From Xanthomonas sp. (GTDB lineage: Bacteria; Pseudomonadota; Gammaproteobacteria; Xanthomonadales; Xanthomonadaceae): DNA of 64,000 nt. Positions within the stretch are counted from its first letter, which is position 1. Each line of letters begins with the position of its first letter. The notes below the pieces were generated by a model, which saw nothing but the letters and a program-made list of their open reading frames with translations, was not told where the DNA came from and did not search any database. The position numbers and the translations under genes are program-made. Below are positions 51,889-57,922 of the stretch, piece after piece. The stretch is taken from the NCBI RefSeq assembly GCF_017163755.1, contig NZ_JAFIWC010000001.1:186001-250000 (forward strand). Direction: 5' to 3'.

Positions 51889-53019
51889 TCAGCGCCCGGT
51901 CTTGAGCTCGGTCCACAACCGCGTGTACTGGCGATCCACCGCCGGCGGCATCACCGCCAGCGCGAACAGCTTGGCCTGCACCTCCGGCGGCGGATAGATG
52001 GTGCGGTCGCCGCTGATCGCCGCGTCCACCATCGCCGTGGACGCCGGCACCGCATTGGGATAGCTGACGAAATTGGTGTTGGCCGCGGCCACGTCCGGGG
52101 TCAGCAGGTAGTTGATGAAGCGGTGCGCGTTCTCCGGATGCTTGGCGTCCTTGGGGATCGCCAGCATGTCGAAGAACTGCAGCGCGCCTTCCCTGGGGAT
52201 CGAATAGGCGATGCGCACGCCGTTCTTGGCCTCCTCGGCACGGTCGCGCGCCTGCAGGATGTCGCCGGACCAGCCCACCACCAGGCAGGTGCTGCCCTTG
52301 GCCAGCGCGTCGATGTACTGCGAGGAATGGAAGTTCTGGATGTACGGGCGCAGCTCCTCGAGCTTGGCCGCGGCCTTGGCGATCACCTTCGGATCGGTGC
52401 TGTTCGGGTCCTCGCCGAGGTAGTGCAGCACCGTGGGCACGATCTCCGAGGCGGTATCGAGGAAGGTCACCCCGCAGCCCTTGAGCTTGGCCAGGTTCTC
52501 CGGCTTGAACACCAGGTCCCAGCTGCCGACGACCTCGGTACTGCCGAAGGCGGCCTGGATCTTGTCCACGTTGTAGCCGATGCCGGTGGTGCCCCACAGG
52601 TACGGCACGGCGTAGGCGTTGCCCGGGTCCTGCTGGGCGATGCGCCGCATCATCGCCGGGTCCAGGTTGGCCAGGTTGGGGATCTTGCGCTTGTCCAGCG
52701 GCTGGAACACGCCTGCCTGGATCTGCCGGCCGAGAAAGCTCAGCGACGGCACCACCACGTCGTAGCCGCTGCCGCCGGCCAGCAGCTTGGCCTCCAGCAA
52801 CTCGTTGCTGTCGAACACGTCGTAGGTGACGCGGATCCCGCTGTGGCGCTCGAAGCCGGGCACCGTGCCTTCGGCGATGTAGTCGGACCAGTTGTAGACG
52901 TTCAGCTGCTTCGGCTCGTCCGCCGCGGCGGCCGCGGTGTCCGCGCCGCCCTGCCCCGCATCCCCGCACCCGGCCAGCATCAGTACCGCCAACGCTGCCG
53001 CCACCGTCCGCTGCTTCAT
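51889..53019 (-). CDS. Polyamine-binding periplasmic lipoprotein, PotF family (copy 2)
   Basis: A 376-residue PotF/SpuD-type binding protein. The signal peptide ends in the lipobox LAGC, so it is probably a lipoprotein. LNVYNWSDYIAEGTVPGFER (~39-58) is the classical ligand-site start with Trp/Ser/Asp/Tyr. YDVFDSNELLEAKLLAGGSG, VPYLWGTTGIGYNVDKIQ (~144) and VVGWSGDILQARDRAEEA (~248) complete the pocket. ATG 53019 is favoured by GGAG 7 nt upstream. It aligns along its whole length with the next gene, its tandem paralogue. It likely feeds PotGHI. Confidence 0.93.
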   Translation of the reverse strand: MKQRTVAAALAVLMLAGCGDAGQGGADTAAAAADEPKQLNVYNWSDYIAEGTVPGFERHSGIRVTYDVFDSNELLEAKLLAGGSGYDVVVPSLSFLGRQIQAGVFQPLDKRKIPNLANLDPAMMRRIAQQDPGNAYAVPYLWGTTGIGYNVDKIQAAFGSTEVVGSWDLVFKPENLAKLKGCGVTFLDTASEIVPTVLHYLGEDPNSTDPKVIAKAAAKLEELRPYIQNFHSSQYIDALAKGSTCLVVGWSGDILQARDRAEEAKNGVRIAYSIPREGALQFFDMLAIPKDAKHPENAHRFINYLLTPDVAAANTNFVSYPNAVPASTAMVDAAISGDRTIYPPPEVQAKLFALAVMPPAVDRQYTRLWTELKTGR

Positions 53020-53187
53020 CGTCGTCTCCATGCCGTCATCGCGACGGCGGTTGGCGGGACGCCTGCCTCGCGCATGCGTCCCGAAGGCCCTCCCCTGGGC
53101 GGCCGCGCATGCGCGGCCGTACTGCCGGCACACGCCGCGTCTGCGGCGCGTGCCTTGGTCCTGACGAAGAAAGCATCGCCGAACGGC

Positions 53188-54330
53188 TCAACGGCCGGTC
53201 TTGATCTCCGTCCACAGCCGCGTGTACAGCTTGTCCACTTCCGGCGGATTGATCGAATAGGTGAACATCTTCGCCGACACCTCCGGCGGCGGGTAGATGG
53301 TCGGGTCGTTGCGGATCGCCTCGTCCACCAGCGCGGTGGCCTTGGGCACCGGGTTGGCGTAGTGGATGAAGTTGCTGTTGGCCGCGGCCACCTCCGGCGC
53401 CAGCAGGTGGTTGATGAACTTGTAGGCGTTCTCCGGATGCTTGGCGTCCTTGGGGATGGCCAGCATGTCGAACCACTGCGGCGCGCCTTCCCTGGGGATC
53501 GAATAGGCCACCTGCACCCCGTTCTTGGCTTCCTCGGCGCGGTCGCGCGCCTGGATGATGTCGCCCGACCAGCCCACCGCCAGGCAGGTGCTGCCGTTGG
53601 CCAGCGAGGTCACGTACTGCGAGGAGTGGAAGTTCTGCACGTACGGGCGGATGGCCTTGATCAGCGCGGCGGCCTTCTCGATCTTGGCGGTGTCGGTGGT
53701 GTGCGGATCCTCGCCCTGGTAGTGCAGCGCGATCGGGATCAGGTCCGACGGGGTGTCGAGGATGGTGACGCCGCAGTCCTTGAGCTTGGCGATGTTCTCC
53801 GGCTTGAACACCAGGTCCCAGCTGTTGGCGATGTCGGTGCTGCCGAACGCGGCCTTGACCTTGTCGACGTTGTAGCCGATGCCGGTGGTGCCGACCATGT
53901 ACGGCACGCCGTACTTGTTGCCCGGATCCTGCTGCGCGATGCGCTGCATGATCTGCGGGTCCAGGTTGGCCAGGTTGGGGATCTTGCTCTTGTCCAGCGG
54001 CAGGAACACGCCGGCCTGGATCTGCCGGCCGAAGAAGTTCAGCGTCGGCACCACCACGTCGTAGCCGCTGCCGCCGGCCAGCAGCTTGGTCTCGACCATC
54101 TCGTCGCTGTCGAACACGTCGTAGGTGACCTTGATGCCGCTGGCCTTCTCGAAGTTGGGGATGGTGTCCTCGGCGATGTAGTCCGAATAGTTGTAGACGT
54201 TGAGCACCTGTTCCTCGCCGGCCGCCGGCTTGCCGCCCTGCCCGTTGCCGGAACCGCCGGAGCCGTCGGAACCGCCGCAGGAGGCGAGCAGCGCCGCGGA
54301 AAGGGAAAGAGTGAGCAGTCGCAGCTTCAT
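53188..54330 (-). CDS. potF: Polyamine-binding periplasmic lipoprotein, PotF family (copy 1)
   Basis: A 380-residue PotF paralogue. The lipobox is LLASC, followed by a Gly/Ser linker (GGSDGSGGSGNGQGG). LNVYNYSDYIAEDTIPNFEK (~50-69) has Tyr where the other copy and E. coli PotF have Trp in the pocket motif, so ligand preference may differ. VPYMVGTTGIGYNVDKVK and AVGWSGDIIQARDRAEEA follow. GGAGA lies 7 nt before ATG 54330. It lies 72 bp after the aminotransferase gene on the same strand. Confidence 0.94.
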   Translation of the reverse strand: MKLRLLTLSLSAALLASCGGSDGSGGSGNGQGGKPAAGEEQVLNVYNYSDYIAEDTIPNFEKASGIKVTYDVFDSDEMVETKLLAGGSGYDVVVPTLNFFGRQIQAGVFLPLDKSKIPNLANLDPQIMQRIAQQDPGNKYGVPYMVGTTGIGYNVDKVKAAFGSTDIANSWDLVFKPENIAKLKDCGVTILDTPSDLIPIALHYQGEDPHTTDTAKIEKAAALIKAIRPYVQNFHSSQYVTSLANGSTCLAVGWSGDIIQARDRAEEAKNGVQVAYSIPREGAPQWFDMLAIPKDAKHPENAYKFINHLLAPEVAAANSNFIHYANPVPKATALVDEAIRNDPTIYPPPEVSAKMFTYSINPPEVDKLYTRLWTEIKTGR

Positions 54331-54402
54331 CGCAGGTCTCCGCAGGTCCATGGGGGAAGATCGGAAGATACACGCCGCGCGGTCCCGCGGCCCGCGCCCA
54401 GA

Positions 54403-55782
54403 CTACCCAGCGCCGGCGGCTTTGCCCAGCGCCGCGGCGGTGTCGTCCAGCGCCCGCCAGGCCTTGTCGAACAGCTCGTCGACCTGCTCGCGGGTGATGA
54501 TCAGCGGCGGCGACAGCAGCATCGCGTCGTGGGTCGCGCGCAGGATCAGGCCGTGGCGCAGCGCGTTGTCCCGGCACAGCGCGCCGACCCGGCCGCGATC
54601 GGCGAAGTAGTGCCGGCGCGGCTTGTCCGGCACCAGCTCCAGCGCCCCGATCATGCCGACGATGCGCGCCTGGCCGACCAGCCGGTGCTCGCCCAGCTCG
54701 GCCCAGCGCTGCGCCAGGTAAGGCGCGATCTCGCTGCGCGCGCGCTCGACGATGCCTTCGTCCTGCAGCAGGCGCAGGTTCTCCAGCGCCACCGCCGCGC
54801 ACACCGGATGCCCGGAATAGGTGCAGCCGTGCGCCAGCTCGCCGCCCTGCTCCTTCAGCACGGTGGCCACGCGCCGGTTGAACATCGCCGCGCCCAGCGG
54901 GATGTAGCCGGAGGTGATGCCCTTGGCGATGGTCATCACGTCCGGCTGGAAGCCGAAGTGCTGCGAGCCGAACCATTCGCCGGTGCGGCCGAAGCCGCAG
55001 ATCACCTCGTCGGCGACCAGCAGCACGTCGTAGCGGCGGCAGATGCGCTCGATCTCCGGCCAGTAGCTGCGCGGCGGGATGTACACCCCGATCGCGCCCA
55101 TGATCGGCTCGCCGATGAACGCGGCCACGCGCTGCGGGCCCAGTTCCAGGATCTTGTCCTCCAGCCGGCGCGCGGCCAGCAGCCCGTATTCCTCCGGGTC
55201 CAGCTCGCCGCCGTCGCCGAATGGGTATGGCGGGTCGATATGGTGGATGTCGGGAATCGGCAGCCCGCCCTGGCGGTGCATGCCCTTCATGCCGCCGAGG
55301 CTGGCGCCGGCCATGGTGGTGCCGTGGTAGCCGTCGTGGCGGCCGATGAAGATGGTCTTCTGCGGCTGGTCCTGCACCGCCCAGAAATGCCGCACCAAGC
55401 GCACGATGGTGTCGTTGGCCTCGGAGCCGGAGTTGGTGAAGAACGCGTACTCCAGGTCGCCGGGGGCCAGCTCGGCGAGCTTGGCCGACAGGCGGATGGT
55501 GGGCTCGGTGGTGCACTGGAAGAAGCTGTTGTAGTAGGCCAGCTGTTCCATCTGCCGTGCCGCGGCCTGGCCCAGTTCCTTGCGCCCGTAGCCGACGTTG
55601 ACGCACCACAGCCCGGCGAAGGCGTCGAGCAGCTTGTTGCCGTCGGCGTCCCATACGTAGGCGCCTTCGCCGCGGGTGAGGATGCGGGTGCCCTTCGCCG
55701 CCAGCGCGGCGTTGTCGTTGAACGGGTGCAGGTGATGCGCGGCATCGAGCTGCTGCAGGGCGAGTGTGTCTATCCGATCCAT
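54403..55782 (-). CDS. spuC: Class III aminotransferase, putrescine-pyruvate type
   Basis: A 459-residue PLP enzyme of the class III (omega) aminotransferases. PLP site residues appear in FFTNSGSEANDTIVRLVRHF (~114-133), LVADEVICGFGRTGEWFGSQ (~255-274) and the Schiff-base Lys in VMTIAKGITSGYIPLGAAMF (~285-304). CTYSGHPVCAAVALENLRLL (~321) is also conserved. The location with potF, puuA, puuD and puuB, and the N-terminus (HHLHPFNDNAAL), point to putrescine/polyamine:pyruvate aminotransferase (SpuC). Other omega-amine substrates remain possible. The inverted-repeat element lies directly upstream. Confidence 0.85.
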   Translation of the reverse strand: MDRIDTLALQQLDAAHHLHPFNDNAALAAKGTRILTRGEGAYVWDADGNKLLDAFAGLWCVNVGYGRKELGQAAARQMEQLAYYNSFFQCTTEPTIRLSAKLAELAPGDLEYAFFTNSGSEANDTIVRLVRHFWAVQDQPQKTIFIGRHDGYHGTTMAGASLGGMKGMHRQGGLPIPDIHHIDPPYPFGDGGELDPEEYGLLAARRLEDKILELGPQRVAAFIGEPIMGAIGVYIPPRSYWPEIERICRRYDVLLVADEVICGFGRTGEWFGSQHFGFQPDVMTIAKGITSGYIPLGAAMFNRRVATVLKEQGGELAHGCTYSGHPVCAAVALENLRLLQDEGIVERARSEIAPYLAQRWAELGEHRLVGQARIVGMIGALELVPDKPRRHYFADRGRVGALCRDNALRHGLILRATHDAMLLSPPLIITREQVDELFDKAWRALDDTAAALGKAAGAG

Positions 55783-55806
55783 ATCGACTCCATAGGTGCG
55801 CCGCTG

Positions 55807-55905
55807 TTGCCGTGCTGTTGCTGTTGTTCTAGCATTTTCCCTGGCTGTTGCTGTTGCCCTGGCTGTTGCTCTCGCCGTTGCTGTTGCTCTCGTTGTTGCT
55901 TGTTG
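55807..55905 (+). repeat. Degenerate (CTGTTG)n hexamer run, left flank
   Basis: CTGTTGCTGTTG units interrupted by CCCTGG, CTCGCC and similar bring the left end of the inverted element to the upstream side of the aminotransferase gene. The same unit recurs in the middle (56136-56155) and, complemented, at the right end. Confidence 0.75.
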
Positions 55906-56434
55906 CTTTTGACTTACCGGGTTCCCTTCCGTAGCGGCGAACCGGGCGGGAAAAACCCGAAGGGCGGCGCACAGGGATGTGCGCCGTCCGCGGCAGGGGC
56001 AGGATGCCCCTTCCGCGGATCCCGTCCGGTTCGCGGACCCGGAGCGCGCAGCGCGGAGGGCGCGAAGGCAGGGTGTGCTTTCTTTTGGTTACTTTTCTTT
56101 GCACAAGCAAAGAAAAGTGACCCGCGTCAGCGGAAGCTGTTGCTGTTGCTGTTGCTCAAGGCTTAAAACAAATCAATGCAAAAGCTTTCGCCCTAACGGG
56201 CGAGTTACTTTTCTTTGCTCGTGCAAAGAAAAGGTAACCAAAAGAAAGCACGCCCTGTCCTCGCGCCTTCCGCGCTGCGCGCTCCAGGTCCGCGTCCGCG
56301 GCGGGGATTCGCGGAAGGGGCATCCTGCCCCTGCCGCGAACGGCGCACATCCATGTGCGCCGCCCCTGCGGGGTTTTTCCCCACCACGGCCGCCGCTGCG
56401 GAAGGGAACCCGGTAAGTCAAAAGCGACAAGCAA
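55896..56434. repeat. Large inverted repeat (two head-to-head ~225-bp copies)
   Basis: The left arm 55896-56121 and right arm 56202-56434 are imperfect reverse complements over their whole length. In each arm, in order from the outside, are CTTTTGACTTACC-type ends, GGGTTCCCTTCCG, an inner palindrome GGCGCACA/TGTGCGCC, GGCAGGGGCAGGATGCCCCT, GAGCGCGCAGCGCGGA, CTTTCTTTTGGTTAC, and a hairpin of CTTTGCAC and AGCAAAG type. About 80 bases separate the arms. The differences between arms are scattered and often preserve pairing. There is no transposase. It looks like a miniature inverted-repeat or paired dispersed element. Confidence 0.85.
56136..56156 (+). repeat. Internal (CTGTTG)3 run in the spacer
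   Basis: AGCTGTTGCTGTTGCTGTTG, three clean copies, lies just inside the end of the left arm of the inverted element. Confidence 0.75.
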
Positions 56435-56482
56435 CAGCCAGAGCAACAGCACCAGCAACAGCAACAGCAACAGCAACAGCAA
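56430..56482 (+). repeat. (CAACAG)n hexamer run, right flank
   Basis: At least four clean CAACAG units (56456-56480) preceded by degenerate ones, the complement of the left flank. It ends 56 bases before the puuA stop. Confidence 0.75.
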
Positions 56483-56536
56483 ATGCTGGTGAGATGGCGC
56501 TCTCTTTCAAGCCGCCACCACTAGCCGATGGCGGCC

Positions 56537-57922
56537 TCACACGTTCAGCAGCAGGAACTCTCGCTCCCACGAGCTGATCACCCGGAAGAACGTCTCGTAC
56601 TCTTTGCGCTTGACCGAGATGTAGGCGCGCACGAAGCGCGGCCCGAGCAGCTCCTGCATCGGCTTGCAGCGCTCCAGCTCGTCCAACGCCTCGCCCAGCG
56701 AGCGCGGCAGGTTGTAGCCCATCTCCTTGCCGCTGCCGGTGGTCGGCGCGGTCGGCTCCAGTTTCTCGCGCATGCCCAGCAGGCCGCAGGCCAGCGTCGC
56801 GGCCATCGCCAGGTACGGATTGGCGTCGGAGCCGGCGAAACGGCTCTCCACGCGCATGTTCTCGATCGTGTCGATCGGCACCCGCAGCCCGCAGGTGCGA
56901 TTGTCGAAGCCCCACAGCACGTTGCTCGGCGACACCTCGCCGAACATCAGCCGCCGGTACGAGTTGACGTTCGGCGCGAAGAACGCCATCGCCATCGGCA
57001 CGTACTTCTGCAGGCCGCCCAGGTAGTGCGCGAAGACGCGGCTGTACTCGCCGGCGCGGCGGCCGCTGAACACGTTCTTGCCGCGCTTCAGGTCGACCAG
57101 GCTCTGGTGGATGTGCATCGCGCTGCCCGGCTCGTTCTCCATCGGCTTGGCCAGGAACGTGGCGTAGACGCCATGACGCATCGCCGCCTCGCGCATCGTG
57201 CGCTTGAACAGGAACACCTGGTCGGCGCGCGACAGCGCGTCGGCGTGGGTGAAGTTCACCTCCAGCTGCGCCGCGCCGGATTCGTGGATCAGCGTGTCCA
57301 CGTCCAGTTCCATCGCGTCGCAGTAGTCGTACATCAGGTCCAGGATCGGGTCGAACTCGTTGACCGCGTCGATCGAATACGACTGCCGCGCGGTCTCCGG
57401 CCGGCCCGAGCGCCCGGCCGGCGGCAGCAGCGGGAAATCCGGGTCGGTGTTCTTCTGCACCAGGAAGAACTCCAGCTCCGGCGCCACCACCGGCTTGTAG
57501 CCCAGCTCGGTGTAGGCCTCGAGCACGCGCCGCAGCACGTTGCGCGGCGCCAGTTCGTGCGGCTGGCCCTCCTTGGTGTAGCAGTCGTGGATCACCTGCG
57601 CGGTGGGGTCGGCGGCCCATGGCACCATCCGTACCGTGTCCGGGTCCGGGCGCAGCTGCATGTCCGAATCCGACGGCGAGGTCAGTTCGTAGTAGTCGTC
57701 CGGGTAGTCGCCGGTGACGGTGGTGGCGAAGATGCCCTCGGGCAGCCGCGTGCCGTAGTCGTGCGAGAACTTGGCCGCGGGGATGATCTTGCCGCGCGCG
57801 TTGCCGGTGATGTCCGGCACCAGGCACTCGACTTCGGTGATGTGCCGGTCCTTCAGCCATCGCCGCAGCGAGCTTTCCTGCTGTTCGGGCGTGTTCTTGC
57901 GGGAGCGCGATCGGGTGGCCAT
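56537..57922 (-). CDS. puuA: Gamma-glutamylputrescine synthetase-like enzyme (glutamine synthetase family)
   Basis: A 461-residue glutamine synthetase-family enzyme. The N-terminal beta-grasp region contains VECLVPDITGNARGKIIPAA (~31-50). Catalytic metal ligands are in PELEFFLVQKN (~147), LEVNFTHADAL (~222) and GSAMHIHQSL (~271). PNVNSYRRLMFGEVSPSN and WGFDNRTCGLRVP (~328-341) are typical of the PuuA/GlnA3 group, which ligates glutamate to putrescine or similar amines. It ends 56 bp from the repeat element and begins 10 bp after puuD, with which it forms an operon. A second family member (58986-60365) is divergently encoded. Confidence 0.9.
   Translation of the reverse strand: MATRSRSRKNTPEQQESSLRRWLKDRHITEVECLVPDITGNARGKIIPAAKFSHDYGTRLPEGIFATTVTGDYPDDYYELTSPSDSDMQLRPDPDTVRMVPWAADPTAQVIHDCYTKEGQPHELAPRNVLRRVLEAYTELGYKPVVAPELEFFLVQKNTDPDFPLLPPAGRSGRPETARQSYSIDAVNEFDPILDLMYDYCDAMELDVDTLIHESGAAQLEVNFTHADALSRADQVFLFKRTMREAAMRHGVYATFLAKPMENEPGSAMHIHQSLVDLKRGKNVFSGRRAGEYSRVFAHYLGGLQKYVPMAMAFFAPNVNSYRRLMFGEVSPSNVLWGFDNRTCGLRVPIDTIENMRVESRFAGSDANPYLAMAATLACGLLGMREKLEPTAPTTGSGKEMGYNLPRSLGEALDELERCKPMQELLGPRFVRAYISVKRKEYETFFRVISSWEREFLLLNV

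Follow-up and report, generated by a model that had tools for sequence, protein, structure and literature searches.

The window analysed here, a stretch of 64,000 nucleotides of Xanthomonas sp. DNA, carries a large intergenic inverted repeat at positions 55896 to 56434. We read this repeat as two convergent copies of a dispersed unit of about 230 nt whose sense strand folds on itself and most likely works as RNA, combining a predicted GGA-hairpin domain with a predicted triple-helix pseudoknot and likely binding the regulator RsmA/CsrA, and we put the probability of this reading at roughly 0.5. The evidence that bears on it directly consists of the copies and their spread, base changes compensated within single units, a third strand that varies together with the purine strand, GGA loops on one strand, and a pair of units that is kept throughout the genus.

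The initial annotation, made from the letters of the window, had described two copies facing each other with palindromes nested in each arm, and both descriptions held. The copies lie at 55905-56125 (+) and 56200-56425 (-), are 88% identical and are separated by 74 bp; the palindrome GGCGCACA..TGTGCGCC was found at 55966-55985 and 56342-56361, and the CTTTTCTTTGC/GCAAAGAAAAG hairpin inside 56087-56122 and 56204-56239. A repeat search let the palindrome arms span 55848 to 56482, because GCTGTTG-type tracts prolong the palindrome outward. A search of the 64-kb window for the 31-nt hairpin motif with up to 3 mismatches returned 4 matches, representing two places on both strands and all within the repeat, with 0 expected.

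Each unit is modelled as a multi-hairpin 5' domain, followed by an H-type pseudoknot and then by a 3' hairpin. Folded alone, unit 1 (55919-56149) gave a z-score of -7.7, with P1 enclosing P2, P3 and P4, followed by the pseudoknot region and the 3' hairpin. This architecture was examined in an alignment of 34 distinct arms of the genus, with near-duplicates and arms failing the core expression left out, and the counts from it carry the caveat that the arms are related. Over 63 pairs, 98.6% of the cells were paired against 90.5% in shuffled data, the covariation score was 0.261 against 0.105 (0 of 500 shuffles), and 183 cells were changed on both sides against 48.6 in the shuffles. Sliding the partners by 1-3 columns lowered the pairing to 39-54%. 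In P1, 8 of the 14 pairs were changed on both sides, and one pair was unpaired in 18 of the 34 arms. Amongst all cells, 2054 were Watson-Crick, 56 were G.U, 2 were A.C and 28 were of other types; the excess of G.U over A.C therefore marks the strand that runs from the outside to the centre of each arm as the one that folds. The basal stem in a wider set gave 24 G.T and 1 A.C, mostly at the outermost pair, and 8 and 1 with that pair excluded.

Aligned with each other, the arms of the window differ in 46 columns, with both-side changes in 7 pairs, 6 of them still paired, and one-side changes in 3 pairs, all via G.T. At this locus, beside the glutamine-synthetase-family gene that the initial annotation named puuA, arm likeness across 13 species (gaps counted) was 0.73 within species, 0.78 between species on the same side and 0.75 between species on opposite sides. 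At a second locus, side-1 arms were mostly about 0.92 alike and resembled side 2 at 0.77-0.82, and side-2 arms were 0.72-0.89 alike; six side-2 arms were as near to side 1 as to side 2, and there are hints that some arm conversion occurs there. In the window's own genome (L351, contig 22), both arms of this second locus resemble the side-1 arms of other species. Homogenisation of arms, considered as a candidate process, was not seen in most species at the two loci. The likeness values and the compensation within arms therefore argue that selection acts on each unit and not on a long duplex. The giant double-stranded RNA (dsRNA) hairpin that had been proposed for transcripts of the region is physically possible, as the single-strand fold of 55896-56434 reached -469.7 kcal/mol against -226.5 +/- 7.2 in 100 shuffles (z -33.7), but the arm values and the within-arm compensation indicate that it is not what evolution keeps.

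The core of unit 1 reads, in order, TGTGC-TTTCTTTT-GGTTAC-TTTTCTTT-GCACA-AGC-AAAGAAAAG-TGACC. The five bases preceding the pyrimidine tract are complementary to the hairpin loop and co-vary with it across families, in the strand/loop sets TGTGC/GCACA, CGTGC/GCACG, CGCGC/GCGCG, CGGCC/GGCCG, TGTCC/GGACA, TATCC/GGATA, TCGCC/GGCGA, TGCCC/GGGCA and CAGC/GCTG. Seventeen genomes supplied 31 unique strand/loop combinations, and 28 of these made a pseudoknot helix of at least five contiguous pairs, compared with a mean of 6.7 and a maximum of 13 in 1000 shuffles; for this count, the loci were taken from a hairpin-only pattern, G.U was allowed, and the best register was chosen over the eight bases up to and including the first T of the tract. 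In a wider set the count was 33 of 41, against a shuffled mean of 8.8 and a maximum of 15 in 300 trials. Two crossing helices with covariation support, as the unit shows them, are what characterises an H-type pseudoknot.

The pyrimidine tract also mirrors the pyrimidine strand of the hairpin, which would allow it to lie parallel to the purine strand in T.A-T and C+.G-C triples. In 43 of the 44 hairpins from the hairpin-only loci, a purine strand A(b)GA(a)G went with an upstream T(b)CT(a), the run classes being 3/3 (19 hairpins), 4/3 (22) and the reversed 3/4 (2). The combinations comprised A3GA4-T3CT4, A3GA3-T3CT3, A3GA5-T3CT5 (one case) and A4GA3-T4CT3 (L174 and L181; G and L numbers are our own handles for genomes and loci). 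Only CT(a)CT(b) hairpins with a matching purine strand were admitted, identical cores were removed beforehand, and the orientation of each hairpin was picked by its upstream pyrimidine content, which cannot itself produce a match in run length. Over all loci the rule was obeyed in 113 of 119, part of these having been fetched with a model that already knew the tract. A loop 1 that follows the purine strand as a parallel third strand, as this one does in its sequence, is the mark of a triple-helix pseudoknot, and by the class definitions of PMC4666352 the core corresponds to a T-rich class IV triplex motif.

Within the genus, all 34 arms have a P3 loop that fits A(N)GGA(T/C), and 33 of the 34 have GGA in the P4 loop; both stems covary. 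Outside the genus, a survey of 54 non-redundant 5' domains (of 81) found GGA in 51 of 93 hairpin loops and TCC in 1 of 93, with 7% in two-base-block shuffles. The unit thus bears several GGA motifs in hairpin loops of the sense strand, as do RNAs that sequester CsrA/RsmA. CsrB-type RNAs carry GGA motifs in hairpin loops, and A(N)GGA(U/C) in such a loop is what we take to be the CsrA/RsmA site signature. The genome has one csrA/rsmA gene, and judging from their letters the loops of the unit would likely bind this global regulator. According to PMC7694677, sequenced Xanthomonas genomes have no significant homologue of CsrB/RsmB, CsrC or RsmV-RsmZ, and an RsmA-sequestering RNA, RsmU, is reported there for Xanthomonas.

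The host is a relative of Xanthomonas bonasiae. Its genome (75 contigs) contains five head-to-head pairs, on contigs 11, 9, 22, 15 and 7, with ten full cores at E <= 1.1e-12; altered or partial copies lie on contigs 13 and 29, and weak core matches (E ~0.002) on contigs 4 and 6. The unit was present in 20 of the 20 genomes of the genus searched, this one included, so that the repeat is a dispersed element and not a local inverted duplication. Twelve single-contig sister genomes held 5 to 26 cores each (E<=1e-9). At the level of the family, 60 of 119 genomes matched by plain DNA, many of the distant matches spanning just the last ~50 bases of the query. The hairpin-only pattern matched 54 of 369 genomes of the class; its backwards control matched 44 of them, with 1-2 matches and never more, and at least 4 pattern matches were found in 20 genomes. 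A covariance model of the core (70 sequences, 14 nested pairs, rough E-values) matched, at E<=1e-4, 93 of the 369 genomes and 75 of 272 genera of the class and, across the phylum, 34 of 299 genomes, five of them outside the class and all five from one family. The large-scale searches scored 12-14 candidates per genome, and copy numbers from them are therefore lower bounds. Draft contigs stop soon after puuA at L056, L057, L066, L076 and L085, and inside the element at L056, L057 and L076; the repeats seem to break assemblies, and draft copy numbers are probably too low.

In Rfam 15, no family reached its gathering score over 55700-56600 (RsmW scored 19.7 of 52 bits, E 0.71), and a match to mir-1255 on both strands (33 of 63 bits) was set aside as it looks like a chance palindrome match; amongst 18 loci of other genomes, none matched Rfam at E<=0.05. 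A phage search with the window unit, a search of viral contigs for one exact core spelling (the A4, GGTTAC form) and a search of E. coli with a core from another family gave no match. In a plasmid collection, 3 records (1.1-4.9 Mb) matched 19-23% of the window unit and 3 records (0.44-2.5 Mb) matched 14-16% of the unit of another genome, the records being named Aeromonas, Pseudoalteromonas, Burkholderia, Pseudomonas and Variovorax. This collection lists no RNA genes, and the lack of a feature under a match is uninformative on RNA annotation. A reading of the unit as phage or plasmid cargo was rejected, the phage and viral-contig searches being empty and the plasmid matches partial (14-23% of the query). 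In the open literature (5.39 million papers), with subscription papers and preprints outside the scope, no description of the unit was found; amongst the core strings, only TTTTGGTTACTTTTC matched, a single time in each of three papers on virology.

The arrangement of the units varies. Amongst the genomes of the family, G020, G047, G081 and G133 share the convergent arrangement with this genus, and G034, G088 and G132 have divergent pairs. Twenty loci of other families, chosen partly since pairs were listed there, comprised 11 divergent pairs, one cluster of four, one tandem pair (L275), two same-strand units 2.3 kb apart at one locus, and 6 single units. Nine more divergent pairs were found (L311-L314 and L329-L333), as well as a weak divergent partner in 7 of 14 loci of G672. 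Single units also stand at L065, L067, L073 and L079; by eye, those at L065, L067 and L079 are flanked on both sides by a repeat of the TTCCCTTCTCCC..GGGAGAAGG..GCGGATGAGGG type, which occurs once in related empty gaps. Pairs mostly have no gene inside.

At the puuA site, 13 of the 20 genus genomes have the pair, 2 have lost its centre, 2 have sequences that end inside the element, and the remaining 3 showed neither an aminotransferase match nor a core within the fetched stretch. In two species (L140 and L147, also named locus L058), the whole stretch from one P3 hairpin to the other is lost, and a palindrome around one GGA loop (GGCGCAC..GTGCGCC) remains. In the window's species, the arms at this locus seem to have traded places in their entirety, as judged against G005, G016 and G017, and a flip of the spacer only was dropped for that reason; exchange with other copies may be the source of the swapped arms. 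A survey of named loci (the best 80 of 372 puuA relatives, 1.0 Mb) found seven full cores (E<=0.001), which lie immediately downstream of puuA and are spread over six loci. Four of these loci carry single units, three of them from Xanthomonas and one from [Pseudomonas] boreopolis; X. pisi has a further core at a contig end, and a Pseudoxanthomonas metagenome-assembled genome has a divergent pair. Three more of these named loci had partial units in the gap downstream of puuA.

The second site, beside a biotin-carboxylase-type gene and located by its flank on one side only, has a convergent pair in 20 of 20 genus genomes, even in two small genomes with only two and four matches in the genus search. 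The copies there are therefore old and inherited, and movement was not observed. In G010, the biotin-carboxylase-type gene neighbours a carboxyltransferase-like gene. Flank genes elsewhere are mixed, and a desaturase-type gene, which also matches the ISL3 model, was the only one repeated across families. The 3' end of the unit faces the 3' end of this homologous gene (PF00487 plus an ISL3-like stretch) at L250/L272 (G264), L261 (G467) and L269 (G146), and one of the three genomes carries the gene as two overlapping loci; its adjacency in three genomes of different families may reflect shared ancestry or a preferred site.

The positions of the features are collected in the table below. The placement of the repeat between the glutamine-synthetase-family gene (upstream) and an aminotransferase (downstream), both on the - strand, agreed with the initial annotation. 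The aminotransferase passes the PRK07480 model (751 against a cut-off of 510), and the name puuA is unproven, the NCBIfam gamma-glutamylputrescine synthetase model giving 215 bits against a cut-off of 650; the closest named puuA proteins (94-95%) are from Xanthomonas bonasiae, Xanthomonas sp. F10 and NCPPB 1128. Two adjacent related open reading frames (ORFs) on the - strand, at 51889-53133 and 53188-54351, presumably resemble periplasmic polyamine-binding proteins, which would suggest a polyamine operon. Five ORFs across the repeat matched nothing credible in Pfam (best E 0.0055, under its cut-off), and a protein-coding reading of the repeat was dropped accordingly. In 16 windows around pairs of one sister genome, six 14-mers of the GCTGTTG tracts (GCTGTTGC/GCTTTTGC types, both strands) were counted 17 times in the 22 kb that lie up to 700 bp from a pair centre, and once in the remaining 54 kb. 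The outer ends of the window pair fall in hexamer tracts, which would mask target-site duplications.

Features of the inverted repeat and its neighbours, in window coordinates
Feature	Position	Strand	Basis or remark
Unit 1 (arm 1): 5' domain, pseudoknot, 3' hairpin	55919..56133	+	structure kept in 34 arms
Unit 1 P1, 5' strand; pairs with 56021-56034, closes the multi-hairpin 5' domain	55937..55950	+	covariation
Unit 1 P1, 3' strand	56021..56034	+	covariation
Unit 1 P3 hairpin, loop AGGGAT (CsrA/RsmA-like GGA loop)	55966..55985	+	loop A(N)GGA(T/C) in 34/34 arms
Unit 1 P4 hairpin, GGA loop	55987..56019	+	GGA in 33/34 arms, stem pairs covary
Unit 1 pseudoknot 5' strand TGTGC; pairs with loop GCACA (56101-56105)	56074..56078	+	covariation in genus arms and across families
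Unit 1 predicted third strand TTTCTTTT; mirrors hairpin strand, parallel to AAAGAAAA (56109-56116)	56079..56086	+	run-length rule
Unit 1 pseudoknot stem GGTTACTTTTCTTT / AAAGAAAAGTGACC, loop GCACAAGC	56087..56122	+	covariation
Unit 1 3' hairpin P7	56122..56133	+	covariation
Unit 2 (arm 2), architecture as unit 1, 88% identical to it	56188..56411	-	alignment
Unit 2 pseudoknot stem and loop GCACGAGC	56204..56239	-	coordinates mapped
Unit 2 predicted third strand TTTCTTTT	56240..56247	-	coordinates mapped
Unit 2 pseudoknot 5' strand CGTGC; pairs with loop GCACG	56248..56252	-	covariant counterpart of unit 1 TGTGC/GCACA
Unit 2 P4 hairpin, GGA loop	56308..56340	-	mapped; loop survey
Unit 2 P3 hairpin, loop ATGGAT	56342..56361	-	mapped; loop survey
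Spacer separating the convergent units, GCTGTTG tract at left end	56134..56187	.	sequence, repeat search
Outer GCTGTTG-type low-complexity tract, aminotransferase side	55844..55904	.	sequence, repeat search
Outer AGCAACAGC-type tract, puuA side	56430..56482	.	sequence, repeat search, 14-mer count
Glutamine-synthetase-family gene (puuA of the initial annotation)	56537-57922	-	upstream; read-through would meet unit 2 in sense first
Aminotransferase, PRK07480-type	54403-55782	-	downstream of the repeat

Several results weigh against a GGA-bearing triple-helix RNA that binds RsmA. In a fixed register, the wider pseudoknot set was Watson-Crick in 97 of 165 (shuffled 58.6), with 9 G.T and 5 A.C, a count that is lower because the helix shifts by one base between groups. 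The rule was broken by 6 of 119 third strands and by 3 of 31 pseudoknots. Five of the six third-strand exceptions are units with an insert of ~28 nt that leaves TTCTTTT, and the sixth, L204, is also the single exception of the restricted set. The insert (..TTGACCAGCC..GGTAAAGCGC..) lies at the same point, between the pseudoknot strand and the third strand, at L022, L042, L138, L148 and L158, and L022 (own genome, contig 15:88895-89468) has it in both arms of the pair. In all 34 genus arms, the GCTTTC that lies in the third-strand region has a second possible partner, a GAAAGC further downstream (alignment columns 169-174 with 229-234, in unit 1 from 56077 onward), and this competing helix could make the unit bistable in this genus. 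In the 34-arm alignment, pairs changed on both sides were in slight excess (21 against 17.6 shuffled, 2 of 500), and further pair types (36) were below the shuffled value of 40.4. The tolerance of G.T is compatible with single-stranded DNA as well and does not separate it from RNA. Gene context, called with simple ORFs, was without orientation bias: amongst the 15 classified of 16 pairs in G010, 10 lay between co-oriented, 3 between convergent and 2 between divergent genes, and the corresponding numbers in other genomes (15 of 16) were 6, 6 and 3. The GGA loops amount to a motif only. Finally, PMC7694677 reports that RsmU with all GGA changed still bound RsmA.

Amongst the competing explanations, it is possible, if doubtful, that the unit is a conserved structured RNA whose function has nothing to do with RsmA/CsrA, such as a stabiliser of mRNA 3' ends or a ribozyme-like element. 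The evidence for structure is independent of the GGA motif, and triple helices of the telomerase type stabilise RNA, yet the imbalance between GGA and TCC loops calls for an explanation. The unit might instead act as single-stranded DNA, as a hairpin or pseudoknot substrate of an HUH (Y1) or other transposase in the way that REP/REPIN sequences serve RAYT, with the inverted pair as the mobile form. Dispersed copies, inverted pairs, the folding of one strand, the preference for G.T over A.C and two Y1_Tnp (PF01797) loci in the genome would all be in keeping with it. We nevertheless consider it rather unlikely: the two Y1 genes, each examined within a locus of ~3.2 kb, have no core nearby at E<=0.1, so that the RAYT gene flanked by its repeat that marks REP/REPIN systems was not seen; 80 of 167 flank ORFs, picked by length, contained no shared transposase, the four ISL3-model matches representing the one desaturase-type gene in three genomes; in each of the 20 genomes of the genus a pair adjoins the same gene; the searches made in phages and viral contigs were empty; and the GGA loops would be left unexplained.

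A role as a double-stranded DNA element (H-DNA or a cruciform) in chromosome organisation or polymerase pausing, like the intrastrand triplex repeats BoxC/TM, is quite improbable; the order Hoogsteen-pyrimidine-purine fits triplex class IV as set out in PMC4666352, but a covarying pseudoknot helix and strand-specific GGA loops require a free single strand. The initial annotation had suggested a miniature inverted-repeat transposable element (MITE) or a paired dispersed element without transposase. The latter description stood, and the former was not supported, given that a MITE is always two-armed, that the unit also occurs in single, divergent and tandem forms, that no consistent ORF lies within the pairs examined (the largest ORF inside six wide pairs was 155 aa, with none of 160 aa or more and thus no autonomous partner), and that the second-site pair is present in all 20 genomes. 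Overall, a MITE and a functional long dsRNA are both unlikely readings of the repeat. For the specific view of an ordinary MITE or long inverted repeat that has, at most, the function of forming a giant dsRNA or cruciform, one can cite the very stable whole-span fold, arms that are 88% identical and centre-deleted palindromes in two species; against arms that are not homogenised in most species, variation compensated within each arm and the non-paired forms, we regard it as very improbable.

If the unit is indeed a triple-helix pseudoknot RNA that binds RsmA, a transcript crossing the pair from either side would carry exactly one sense unit, and inverted pairing would therefore make the cassette independent of strand, either strand offering one sense unit. 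The unit would fold during transcription, its triple-helix pseudoknot at the 3' end may hinder 3' exonucleases and keep upstream RNA alive, and its GGA hairpins would load RsmA/CsrA. Many chromosomal copies could then mark host mRNAs for RsmA control and jointly draw on the RsmA pool of the cell; in the window, this action would take place between the glutamine-synthetase-family gene and the aminotransferase. Extended to all copies, this suggests, as a tentative and speculative proposal, a previously unnamed genomic RNA system in many proteobacterial genomes, in which strand-symmetric cassettes of a telomerase-like triple-helix pseudoknot RNA, present in many copies, form a distributed RsmA/CsrA sponge, make each host operon RsmA-addressable and stand in as the missing Xanthomonas counterpart of CsrB/RsmZ.

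An RNA class that is widespread, reaches up to tens of copies in a genome, lacks a match in Rfam 15 and contains a triple-helix pseudoknot that covaries would be of interest in several respects. It may have stayed hidden as RNA searches often filter out repeats, it offers a testable candidate for an RsmA antagonist in Xanthomonas besides RsmU, and it points to some bacterial "palindromic repeats" being folded RNAs that selection maintains, and not junk. Three-strand covariation as comparative evidence for an RNA triple helix is itself unusual.

Amongst known systems, REP, BIME and REPIN sequences are likewise palindromic intergenic repeats with many copies and frequent inverted pairs; they measure 20-40 bp, whereas this unit measures ~230 nt, has a pseudoknot and a predicted third strand, and has no core near the Y1 genes. 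MITEs share with it that they are short, non-coding, intergenic and built of inverted repeats, but its arms fold and covary individually, occur singly, divergently or in tandem, and showed no relation to a transposase in the searches made. BoxC/TM repeats (PMC4666352) are dispersed intergenic triplex-capable motifs that at times form inverted pairs; unlike them, this unit places its T-rich class IV motif in a pseudoknot within a larger folded unit. CsrB/RsmZ-type RNAs and the Xanthomonas RsmU (PMC7694677) also have several GGA motifs, and they are single genes, in contrast to a dispersed unit with a conserved pseudoknot and no Rfam match. There is also a likeness to H-type pseudoknots with a major-groove triple helix, as in telomerase RNA, SAM-II, SAM-V and preQ1-II. 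In these, a pyrimidine loop 1 lies parallel to the purine strand of stem 2, which is the arrangement predicted here. The present unit differs from such RNAs in having no known ligand, in occurring in many copies per genome and in carrying an attached domain of GGA hairpins.
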